34,157 nt of DNA. It comes from Neptuniibacter sp. UBA6509 (GTDB taxonomy: Bacteria; Pseudomonadota; Gammaproteobacteria; Pseudomonadales; Balneatricaceae). The translations under genes were made by a program, and so were the position numbers. The notes below the pieces were generated by a model. It was given only the letters and a program-made list of their open reading frames with translations, was not told the DNA's origin and did no database searches. The stretch is taken from contig DJLT01000019.1 in NCBI GenBank assembly GCA_002435145.1, positions 1-34,157 on the forward strand. Direction: 5' to 3'. Of the stretch, positions 378 to 2,735 are shown piece after piece (within the stretch, counting starts at the first letter, position 1; each line of letters starts with the position of its first letter).

Positions 378-806
378 CTAGATGTCAGCATGAGGAAAAT
401 CTTTTAAACAGCAGCGACCTGATGGGTTCCTTGAGTCGCAAGCGCATGTTTTATTTTTTGTTTGATCAACAATATATGATTTCGTTCTTTTGTCTCTCAA
501 GAATTCACCACGAGTTAAACCAAAGCAATAGCATAGAGTTGCTGAGTCAGAAGGATCTTTTTGACCTACATCCGTTCGGAGGTGAGCTCGGGTGATTATT
601 TGATTCGTAGCTGAAAAGTAAACTACATCGCAATCTGGGTTATCACAAAAGTAATAAGTGTCGCCTTGAGGATTCCAAGCCCAAGGCTGACTAATATGAT
701 GAATGATTGTTGATACTGGAACTTCTATATATACATATCCGTCTAAAGGGCATGTACCTTTCTTCGAATGTGCTTTATTACTGCCAGAACCACAACACTC
801 AGCCAC
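378..806 (-). CDS. Small Cys-rich CopZ-N-terminus-like metallochaperone (putative Zn/[2Fe-2S] protein)
   Basis: This 142-residue protein resembles the N-terminal metal-cluster domain of Archaeoglobus-type CopZ, a copper chaperone that binds one zinc and one [2Fe-2S] cluster in that domain. Eleven cysteines are visible: C4, C5, C19, C54, C59, C92, C94, C121, C123, C132 and C133. The CYC, CAC and CC patterns near the C-terminus are the expected cluster ligands. There is no following heavy-metal-associated domain, so this is a stand-alone form. It is a soluble protein without signal peptide. The start is a GTG at 804-806 with GAGG about eight bases upstream; the nearby ATG upstream is out of frame. 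It is the last gene of a minus-strand metal-related cluster but is separated from its upstream neighbour by 139 bases holding a strong inverted repeat, so it may have its own promoter. Family assignment is by recalled motif; metal specificity is unknown. Confidence 0.75.
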   Translation of the reverse strand: MAECCGSGSNKAHSKKGTCPLDGYVYIEVPVSTIIHHISQPWAWNPQGDTYYFCDNPDCDVVYFSATNQIITRAHLRTDVGQKDPSDSATLCYCFGLTRGEFLRDKRTKSYIVDQTKNKTCACDSRNPSGRCCLKDFPHADI

Positions 807-887
807 TTTTTATGCCTCATATAGAAGTCTATGGATGTTTTAGGAGCATAAAAGTTTCACTTCAGTACTTTCACTATTTAATAAACT

Positions 888-924
888 ATACACTCTATTA
901 TCAATATTAGTTAATAGAGTGTAT
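888..924. promoter_or_regulatory. Perfect 13-bp inverted repeat with 11-base spacer (operator or terminator)
   Basis: The arms ATACACTCTATTA (888-900) and TAATAGAGTGTAT (912-924) are exact reverse complements around an AT-rich spacer. The dyad lies between the stop of the membrane-anchored protein gene (946) and the GTG of the CopZ-like gene (806). No clear U-run follows it in the minus direction, so an operator is at least as likely as a terminator. The half-site TAGAGTGT recurs in a second, imperfect dyad at 2801-2825, upstream of the first gene of the same cluster. Confidence 0.6.
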
Positions 925-945
925 GGAACAAATTAAATAGCCGAA

Positions 946-1545
946 TTAAGGCATGTAAAGATCGCCATAAAATCCATTGGTGGATAATGTGATTGTCACA
1001 GGAGTGGTTCCTGTATTCTGCCAGTACCACCCATGGGTACCTTTAAATGGGGCGGAAAAGTTCCCACTAGCCTGTTGTTGATTTTTACCAATCCAGTAGC
1101 TGGTGAACTCATCCTTACCTGCATTTGGCGGTTCGCCATGCATGTCGAAGTAAACTAAGCCACCTTCGACCTTCCAGCTAAAAACAAAGTTGTCACCGAC
1201 ATTCATTGGGGACTTGATTTCGGCACCCTGTCGAGGCAATAAGGTCAGCGTTTTAGTGTCAGAGCGTGGTACGGTTTGTGTCTTCCATAACGGATTACTT
1301 CCGTCTGTCATGACATTTTCAGTATCACTTTCAACCGTGGTTGATTCTATCTCTGGGGCTTGTACCTGACTCAAAACAGTCAAGCCCAGCGCTTTACCTG
1401 CCCCTGTCGGATCAATTCCATATTCAGCCGGCAATATTACTGTTAGCAATATAAGTACTGCACCTACTAGCGAAGCTGCAGTCGTTTTGATGAGGCTTAT
1501 TGTTGACGGTAATCCGTCTTTGTTAATAGTTGAGATATCGTTCAT
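946..1545 (-). CDS. Membrane-anchored periplasmic protein of unknown function (transmembrane anchor type)
   Basis: The 199-residue product has a short cytoplasmic N-terminus, one hydrophobic helix at about residues 19-40 and a long outside part. That part begins with a Thr/Ser/Glu-rich linker (about 60-100) and ends in a compact beta-rich domain with many Trp, Tyr and Gly residues (WKVEGG, YFDMHGEPP, HGWYWQNTG, FYGDLYMP). A protein of this type, often labelled transmembrane anchor protein, commonly sits beside HupE/UreJ-like genes, but I know no experimentally shown role. It starts at an ATG with AGGA eight bases upstream, and that ribosome site overlaps the TAG of the HupE-like gene. The two genes are only 11 bases apart and almost surely co-translated. 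A metal-related role is inferred from neighbours only. Confidence 0.8.
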   Translation of the reverse strand: MNDISTINKDGLPSTISLIKTTAASLVGAVLILLTVILPAEYGIDPTGAGKALGLTVLSQVQAPEIESTTVESDTENVMTDGSNPLWKTQTVPRSDTKTLTLLPRQGAEIKSPMNVGDNFVFSWKVEGGLVYFDMHGEPPNAGKDEFTSYWIGKNQQQASGNFSAPFKGTHGWYWQNTGTTPVTITLSTNGFYGDLYMP

Positions 1546-1556
1546 GGTGATAATTC

Positions 1557-2291
1557 CTATGTACTCATCCAGTAGCCAGTTAATTGGTAGCCAATAAGCA
1601 TAAAGCCCAGCGCCATCAGGACTGAATTTGTAAAGAATGCATGCAGATTAAAAGAGGGTGATTTTCGCCAGAAATTCATGGCGATAAGAATTCCTGTTAA
1701 TGCTAAGAGCTGACCGATTTCAACACCAATATTGAAAGCTAATATATTGGCGACAAGTCCATCTTCAGAAAGTGTGAAATCCTGAAGCTTTGTAGCCAGG
1801 CCAAATCCATGGAAGAATCCGAAAATCAGGACAGCAGCTTTAGTGTTCGGCTGAAACCCAAACCATCGTTGAAAAGCGCCAAGGTTATCAAGTGCCTTGT
1901 AAACTACAGAAAGGCCAATGATAGCGTCAACAATATACGGGTTTACATGAGTTTCGCTAAGAACCCCATAAAGCAAGGTTACACTGTGTCCAACAGCAAA
2001 TAATGTTACATAAATAGCAACATCTTTCATTCGAAAAAGAAAGAATATAACGCCAAACAGAAATAGAAGGTGGTCATAGCCTGTGACCATATGTTTGGCA
2101 CCTAAGTAAATAAAGGGTATTAAGTGCATGCCGCTGGCGCTTTCGATAAACGAAGCATCCCCTTCGGCGACACCATGGGCTAAAGCTTGTGCTGGTAGCC
2201 CTATACCAACAAGTAGTGTTAGGAAAGTAGCTAGACTCACTAAGCTAATATTCCATTTAGGTGCAAGAGCAGATGAAAATACTGGATACAT
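1557..2291 (-). CDS. HupE/UreJ-family membrane protein (putative metal permease)
   Basis: The 244-residue polytopic protein has an N-terminal signal-like helix ending near ALAHG (residues 36-40) and then about six membrane helices. Conserved polar residues sit inside helices: GAKHMVTGYDHLLFL (H67, D73, H74), AVGHSVTL (H102), FGFFHGFGLA (H161) and FNIGVEIGQ (E191). These are the signature positions of the HupE/UreJ_2 group. Classical HupE and UreJ proteins are nickel or cobalt permeases linked to hydrogenase or urease. No hydrogenase or urease gene is present here, so the cargo is open; a neighbouring His-rich exported protein and a CopZ-like protein suggest Ni, Co, Cu or Zn. GGAG lies about eight bases before the ATG. 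It is 39 bases downstream of the His-rich gene and 11 bases upstream of the anchored-protein gene, forming one operon. Confidence 0.85.
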   Translation of the reverse strand: MYPVFSSALAPKWNISLVSLATFLTLLVGIGLPAQALAHGVAEGDASFIESASGMHLIPFIYLGAKHMVTGYDHLLFLFGVIFFLFRMKDVAIYVTLFAVGHSVTLLYGVLSETHVNPYIVDAIIGLSVVYKALDNLGAFQRWFGFQPNTKAAVLIFGFFHGFGLATKLQDFTLSEDGLVANILAFNIGVEIGQLLALTGILIAMNFWRKSPSFNLHAFFTNSVLMALGFMLIGYQLTGYWMST

Positions 2292-2330
2292 ACCAGTTCT
2301 CCATTAAAAGTTAATACTGATTAAGATGCG

Positions 2331-2735
2331 CTAAGCGCATTTGATATTCAATTGATCCGGGTTTCGCGGAGGACGATATGGATTTGATTGATATGGGTGT
2401 AGAGGCGTAAATGAGAGATGAGGGAATTCACTCTCAATATGAATCAGAACTCGTTCTGGCAATGTAGTCAAAAATACTTGGTGATCAAGTGCGAGCATTA
2501 CATGAATAAATGGATGATCATCGTCAGTAATACCAGATGAATCATCATGAACGTGGTCAAGCTTGGGAGCATGATAGTGCCCATGTTCTATGGCAAGTAC
2601 TGTCGGGTCAACCAAGGGTGCGGTATCGTGTTGGGCTAATTGAGCCGCCCAGCACGCTCGGAACATCGTCGCAGCAATTAATATAGCTATAGTTGCTATA
2701 CGTATTACTTTAGTTGTGAGTCTTTGCTGCGTCAT
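2331..2735 (-). CDS. His-rich exported protein of unknown family
   Basis: The 134-residue protein has a typical Sec signal peptide: basic N-terminus (R5, K9, R12), hydrophobic core to about residue 25 and a likely cut after CWA near residue 30. The mature part is rich in His and Asp, with EHGHYHAP, DHVHDD and DDDHPFIHV in the first half and a Pro/Asn-rich C-terminus. Such His/Asp clusters often bind Zn, Ni, Co or Cu in the periplasm. I do not recognise a named family. It is the first gene of the minus-strand cluster, followed after 39 bases by the HupE/UreJ-like gene, so it could hand metal to that protein or buffer it. No strong ribosome site is visible immediately before the ATG. An imperfect dyad at 2801-2825 lies in its upstream region. 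Confidence 0.7.
   Translation of the reverse strand: MTQQRLTTKVIRIATIAILIAATMFRACWAAQLAQHDTAPLVDPTVLAIEHGHYHAPKLDHVHDDSSGITDDDHPFIHVMLALDHQVFLTTLPERVLIHIESEFPHLSFTPLHPYQSNPYRPPRNPDQLNIKCA

Follow-up and report, generated by a model that had tools for sequence, protein, structure and literature searches.

A three-gene HupE/UreJ_2 unit with a membrane-tethered partner in Neptuniibacter sp. UBA6509: a putative accessory of nickel and cobalt tolerance

Introduction

HupE/UreJ proteins are described as importers of nickel or cobalt (PMC7689651, PMC11247825) and as distant kin of the NiCoTs, and the published signature of their first transmembrane helix (TM1) is HPXXGXDH (PMC7689651). Here we analysed a stretch of 34,157 nucleotides from Neptuniibacter sp. 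UBA6509 (assembly GCA_002435145.1, contig DJLT01000019.1; hereafter the window), in which a HupE/UreJ_2 permease gene (hupE) lies between the genes for a His-rich exported protein and a membrane-tethered protein (the tether), followed by a gene for a CopZ-N-terminus-like protein. The first three genes are a real, conserved, widespread and under-described unit, which is likely to be an accessory for nickel and cobalt stress.

In Sphingobium ba1, cluster IL54_0273-0283 holds a HupE/UreJ-like gene together with NreB, a CsoR-type repressor, a resistance-nodulation-division (RND) pump and a His-rich open reading frame (ORF), and the HupE/UreJ-like gene was the most induced gene at 10 mM Ni (PMC5557971). 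The authors remarked that nickel induction might look counterintuitive and proposed an accumulator role (PMC5557971). In view of this report, "unrecognised", the term used for the window genes in a first-pass annotation, was too strong. The likeness to our unit lies in a HupE/UreJ-like protein beside nickel-resistance genes and a His-rich ORF, whereas in the window no NreB, RND pump or repressor is linked to the unit; the tether goes unmentioned in the available part of the ba1 account. Two sphingomonad loci of our set (L078, L088; L and G numbers denote our loci and genomes) have a ba1-like gene order with the tether gene present, ba1 being compared by its description only.

NcrB is nickel-responsive, and ncrABC confers nickel resistance with a slight cobalt effect (PMC3046157, PMC8545094). 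The ncrABC, nirABCD and nreAB determinants are frequent neighbours of the trio's relatives, whereas none lies near the window copy. NcrC is described as a PF03824 protein (RcnA/NirC-like) and not as HupE_UreJ_2, and an equation of HupE with NcrC was rejected on that ground. Searches of the accessible literature for HupE, the tether and their neighbours, one of which may have missed the spelling "HupE/UreJ", yielded no account of the trio that includes the tether.

Results

Four ORFs were confirmed, all on the minus strand and in one direction. Three nearly abut, as the first-pass annotation had it, with gaps of 39 bp between the His-rich gene and hupE and 11 bp between hupE and the tether gene; the fourth, CopZ-like gene stands 139 bp off the tether gene. 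The His-rich, hupE and tether genes are one compact unit, laid out as follows.

2331..2735, minus strand: His-rich protein of 134 aa, exported or anchored in the membrane, with 12 His and one N-terminal hydrophobic stretch
1557..2291, minus strand: HupE/UreJ_2 permease (PF13795) with a signal-like N-terminus and the motif H67-x5-D73-H74
946..1545, minus strand: membrane-tethered protein with one TM helix, a variable linker and a conserved C-terminal domain

The window is one whole contig, and an open frame that we read as YidD is cut off at base 1; its ORFs other than these four genes were identified by reading, without profile searches.

A scan of species genomes with two conserved peptides gave at least 584 relatives, from which the best 80 loci were kept; these are the most similar ones, near-copies included, rather than a random sample, and 25 of them are shorter than 14 kb (55 are of at least 14 kb). 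The tether gene lies downstream of hupE in all 80. When 38 genomes were compared (the window's own and 37 relatives), 13, own included, proved to carry hupE at 61% identity or above, and each of the 12 relatives concerned has the tether gene beside it. On plasmids, hupE and tether occurred together in 13/13 regions (nine found by the hupE query and four by the tether query); HupE-like matches occur in 467 plasmid records and tether matches in 388, and the two counts are equal for leading organisms such as Klebsiella (148/148) and Enterobacter (55/55). The HupE-like matches lie at 60-80% identity in 381 records, among which similar copies from Klebsiella and Enterobacter are numerous, and below 60% in 86 of the 467. 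On two Klebsiella plasmids (L057, L063) the pair sits on conjugative plasmids, approximately 5 kb and 2.5 kb from ncrA, and in L057 it adjoins chrA and chrB.

Two same-genus genomes carry HupE and the tether fused into one protein, of 349 aa (L052:2741-3790, G007) and 355 aa (L054:4478-5545, G008). The tether TM helix and linker are missing from the fusions and the tether domain follows the last HupE helix; both fusions are 40-42% identical to the window hupE product and fall outside its clade in the tree. On the simplest reading of this arrangement, the tether domain would work on the outer face of HupE.

Analysis of the surroundings of the 80 loci revealed an NcrA-like gene of the major facilitator superfamily (MFS) in 32, a CsoR/RcnR repressor in 32, a CusA/CzcA-type RND gene in 30 and an RcnA/NcrC-like gene in seven. 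At least one of these four Ni/Co-resistance gene kinds was found in 57 of the 80 loci, a raw count with no random-window baseline, and in 41 of the 55 loci of at least 14 kb; chrA was present in 13/80. Pairwise identity among the three MFS references is 60-71%, and one of these proteins is that of ncrA. A DUF6488 gene follows the tether gene in L040, L041 and L042 and occurs in 6/80 loci; it was not found in the window's own genome, a weak negative because the same search matched no control genome either. Annotated plasmid regions of the pair lie mostly among metal-resistance genes: of 12 such regions, the thirteenth being unannotated, eight have a metal-sensing repressor (NcrB/NirB included), four a CusA/CzcA-family pump and one neither, with one region counted in both.

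The types of these neighbours could be narrowed further. Of the 41 aligned repressors, 12 were compared by identity, eight being 53-70% identical to NcrB and three 39-42% identical to E. coli RcnR, whose sequence is assumed to be correct. The sensing positions read C-H-C in 35/41, which we take to be the CsoR/InrS/NcrB type, and H-C-H-H in 6/41, presumably the RcnR type. The residues ahead of xxxDGA are DFG in 22 of the 29 RND ORFs and DLG in one, which we take to mark the divalent-cation type. An NcrA-like gene was found in 8/13 genomes with the module and 4/25 others (p 0.009), an association that is not used as proof, since it is confounded by kinship: 9 of 11 same-genus genomes, own included, have an NcrA-like gene.

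The permease matched PF13795 with 187.7 bits (cut-off 24.5, E 1.4e-55), as did all 21 clade members, whereas the classical PF04955 (HupE_UreJ) was unlisted for it at E up to 1 and matched 4/21 members (best E 1.8e-4). H39, H67, D73, H74, H102, D122 and H161 are invariant in the 21 sequences. The TM1 signature region reads HMVTGYDH, keeping the H, G, D and H of HPXXGXDH with M in place of P, and these four residues (H67, G71, D73, H74) are invariant in the same 21 sequences. The window clade further differs from described HupE/UreJ permeases in its constant tether partner and in having no linkage to hydrogenase or urease genes. A HupE-like protein in another genome (L053:4384-5214, G021) has a His-rich C-terminal tail, with no tether match in the stretch examined.

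The tether, named "transmembrane anchor protein" in some database records, has a single hydrophobic stretch (residues 22-40) and a C-terminal domain in which H136 and H171 are invariant across 67 sequences. The window protein belongs to no Pfam or NCBIfam family, and the 67 members gave scattered weak matches only; a GOLD/emp24-like fold was considered and set aside, one member of the 67 having matched PF01105 at E 0.0094, too weak to claim.

The upstream His-rich protein is more variable than HupE and the tether. Its core reads HGHYH...H.H, and a PYRPPR motif stands close to its C-terminus; it matched nothing in Pfam or NCBIfam at E up to 1 and had no match in plasmid records. BLAST homologues occupy the same position in L040, L041, L042 and L043, and a six-row alignment, two rows of which were typed by hand, has eight invariant His and an invariant RPP. 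By pattern search, a comparable small protein, rich in His and ending in an RPP-like sequence, lies just upstream of hupE in approximately 34 of the 80 loci, an estimate drawn from 47 candidates in all, spurious frames among them. It is present in 33 of the 58 loci without an RND pump gene directly upstream of hupE versus one of the 22 with such a gene. The NF033807 profile (CopL-type small metal-binding regulator) did not match the window protein and gave 12.2 and 11.7 bits (E 0.21 and 0.30; cut-off 40) for those of two relatives. In two same-genus genomes, an ORF divergent beside the His-rich gene (L041:6396-6671, L042:3325-3600) resembles by eye the GDCCVxC protein of L055 and had no Pfam match.

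The first-pass annotation had found no nickel-enzyme partner or regulator for the cluster. This holds for the window, where no hydrogenase, urease, CsoR/RcnR or NcrA-like gene was found (genome-wide searches, the window ORFs being read and not profile-searched), but elsewhere the genome, which is 91.5% complete, holds NiFe hydrogenases, a urease and an NcrA/NreB-like exporter, all on other contigs. Across the 38 genomes, the trio was not associated with hydrogenase (5/13 module versus 7/25 other genomes, p 0.71) or urease (9/13 versus 14/25, p 0.50), and three genomes (G016, G018, G027) have the trio's hupE with both enzymes absent. Hydrogenases were counted at PF00374 E below 1e-60 (G007 by a part-length frame) and ureases at E below 1e-50; weaker PF00374 matches are presumably NuoD-like. 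Uptake for a nickel enzyme is disfavoured by this result together with the relatives' surroundings; buffering or accumulation may still apply.

The genome's own NcrA/NreB-like MFS protein (L157:4090-5487, G000:C37) has a very His-rich tail, follows CbiM/CbiQ/CbiO-like genes (names read from sequence only) and is 53% identical to the Marinobacter NcrA-like protein; it may belong to cobalt homeostasis. For the genome's own RND proteins, identity to a trio-linked RND protein does not exceed 38% in the aligned part.

Two further features lie beyond the tether gene.

888..924, unstranded: perfect inverted repeat of 13 bp in the intergenic stretch from the tether gene to the CopZ-like gene, with an extended hairpin within 868-946
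378..806, minus strand: CopZ-N-terminus-like Zn/[2Fe-2S] protein (NF047645), judged to be outside the unit

The likeness of this fourth protein to the CopZ N-terminus was borne out by a full-length match to NF047645 (CopZ_Nterm_CC; residues 1-138, 161.7 bits against a cut-off of 100). It is 142 aa long, zf_CopZ (PF18423) is its only Pfam family above cut-off, and the same search found no C-terminal HMA domain of the two-domain CopZ. Residues 30-133 align with 2hu9, and C54, C59, C92, C94, C123, C132 and C133 fall on cysteines; we take 2hu9 to be the N-terminal domain of Archaeoglobus fulgidus CopZ, which the PDB table names mercuric transport protein periplasmic component. Given the metal sites that we assume for 2hu9, the window protein looks able to hold Zn and [2Fe-2S] in the same way; it differs in lacking the C-terminal HMA domain and in that the homologues examined sit with mer genes. 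No CopZ-like gene was found in the 80 hupE loci (BLAST, E up to 1e-4), and among the 38 genomes it occurs in two, the own genome and G007, where a 57% identical homologue is the third gene of merC - GDCCVxC - copZ, on a different contig from the hupE-tether fusion. Plasmid homologues were found in 24 of 72,556 records; in three such regions the gene follows MerR-family, MerT-family and cation transporter genes, follows merR, or lies inside an annotated merA.

The composition of this part of the window also stands apart. The GC content at third codon positions (GC3) of the CopZ-like gene is 28.0%, versus 38.2 +/- 3.0% for 20 window genes (3.4 standard deviations lower), and the 139-bp stretch before it has 27% GC. 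The perfect 13-bp inverted repeat in this stretch is accompanied by an outer 9-bp pair; the hairpin at 868-946 folds as RNA at -24.1 kcal/mol (z = -5.68), and the genome holds a single copy of the repeat even when up to 3 mismatches are allowed. The AT-rich hairpin may be a terminator or an operator. The four-gene metal-handling cluster of the first-pass annotation was thus reduced to its His-rich, permease and tether genes, which are syntenic across genomes and pass the synteny test set by the first-pass annotation; the CopZ-like gene, with 0/80 loci, 2/38 genomes and homologues in mer contexts, fails that test, was rejected as a member and is most likely a separate, unrelated mercury-type neighbour.

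Discussion

We lean, by a modest degree, towards a three-gene accessory of Ni(II)/Co(II) tolerance in which HupE and an exterior subunit would move the metal across the inner membrane, with outward as the favoured direction. Complex formation and topology, the metal handled in this genome, the direction of transport and the hand-over are inferred, and we picture them as follows. The HupE/UreJ_2 permease and the tethered protein would form a working complex. On the exterior side of the inner membrane, the conserved domain of the tether would be apposed to the permease and offer its two invariant histidines. Nickel or cobalt would pass from the cytosol through HupE to this exterior domain, which would hand it to the small exported His-rich protein and, in loci that have one, to an RND pump of the Cnr/Czc type; the His-rich protein would bind or buffer the ion in the periplasm. 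We chose the outward direction because an inward facilitator induced alongside exporters makes little sense; sequence cannot decide the point, and for the direction taken by itself we would put the chance slightly short of even.

Several observations weigh against this account. In a published experiment, deletion of the ncr neighbour "operon2", which may or may not hold this unit, left nickel resistance unchanged. None of the four listed resistance gene kinds lies nearby in 23 of the 80 loci; one of the 12 compared repressors is near neither NcrB nor RcnR; and among the 29 RND ORFs, two (L083, L086) have the motif AIAxG...DAA, which we take to mark the copper/silver type, while in four others no motif was recognised. 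More distant HupE-like genes, L053 and the split L056 among them, stand without a tether. Solved structures lent no help: none matched the HupE profile at E up to 0.1, and the tether profile found just two thioredoxin-family chains (E 0.14-0.15). In the window's own genome, no PF02583 repressor was found at 91.5% completeness, and the sole NcrA-like gene found is unlinked, lying after cobalt-type energy-coupling factor (ECF; CbiMQO-like) genes. Finally, the tree pairs the window hupE with that of G001 inside a 17-row group, with support below the starred level (89/92); of the ten species-genome loci in this group, four have a linked repressor (L068, L071, L072, L080) and six have none of the listed resistance genes. 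Among the group's six further relatives, which fall outside this scoring, a CusB-like gene is close by in G014 and a merR-like gene in G004. The window's own subclade is less often linked to Ni/Co-resistance genes, and the metal proposed for the window copy is transferred from its relatives.

The importer role described for HupE/UreJ proteins both counts against an outward pump and sustains an alternative, in which HupE runs in its known direction, the His-rich protein captures nickel or cobalt, and the metal supplies hydrogenase, urease or B12. The genome does have NiFe hydrogenases and a urease; however, the lack of association with either enzyme, the three module genomes without either, the many relatives beside exporters and nickel-type repressors, and the presence of CbiMQO-like importer genes (so named from their sequence) make this unlikely, as does the induction of the Sphingobium gene by nickel excess (PMC5557971). 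The authors of that study proposed the accumulator role (PMC5557971), which agrees with detoxification by sequestration, HupE admitting or holding nickel or cobalt and His-rich proteins storing it, and with the many loci that pair hupE with a small His-rich protein. The His-rich protein has an export-type N-terminus and would therefore not store a cytosolic ion, and unless the cytosol had a store, an inward facilitator would be a costly arrangement when metal is toxic; we regard sequestration as rather improbable, slightly more so than import. The wider HupE/UreJ-NiCoT group, we assume, also holds the exporter RcnA.

Two other explanations appear very improbable. If the CopZ-like protein were the cytosolic receiver or sensor of imported metal in a four-gene system, its place on the same strand at 139 bp and its metal-binding family would be accounted for, but its absence from the 80 loci, the mer contexts of its homologues, the strong hairpin in between and its deviating GC3 would not. 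The tether and the His-rich protein could instead be periplasmic regulators or sensors, in a role that we liken to that of CzcI, CopL or CnrX, with HupE as their signal partner and not a bulk transporter. The absence of a repressor near the window copy would suit such a role, as would the weak resemblance of two relatives' His-rich proteins to CopL, far below cut-off; against it, no sigma, anti-sigma or kinase gene was recognised on reading the neighbouring ORFs, and in the fusion it is the permease, not a signalling domain, that is attached to the tether domain. We rate this reading as remote as the four-gene system.

Beyond the tolerance accessory itself, it is conceivable, if doubtful, that the unit represents a two-subunit nickel/cobalt exporter, a HupE-fold permease run outward by a constant tethered exterior subunit, and with it a widespread undescribed efflux class. 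Such a class, which we put forward with like reserve, would have a tether family without a Pfam entry and would occur on enterobacterial conjugative plasmids and environmental chromosomes. The family is described as one of importers, yet it is found in hundreds of plasmid records, and a different behaviour of this clade may have its reason, a concrete and testable one, in the constant, sometimes fused partner. If export were true, the common annotation that reads HupE/UreJ as nickel uptake would be wrong for this clade.

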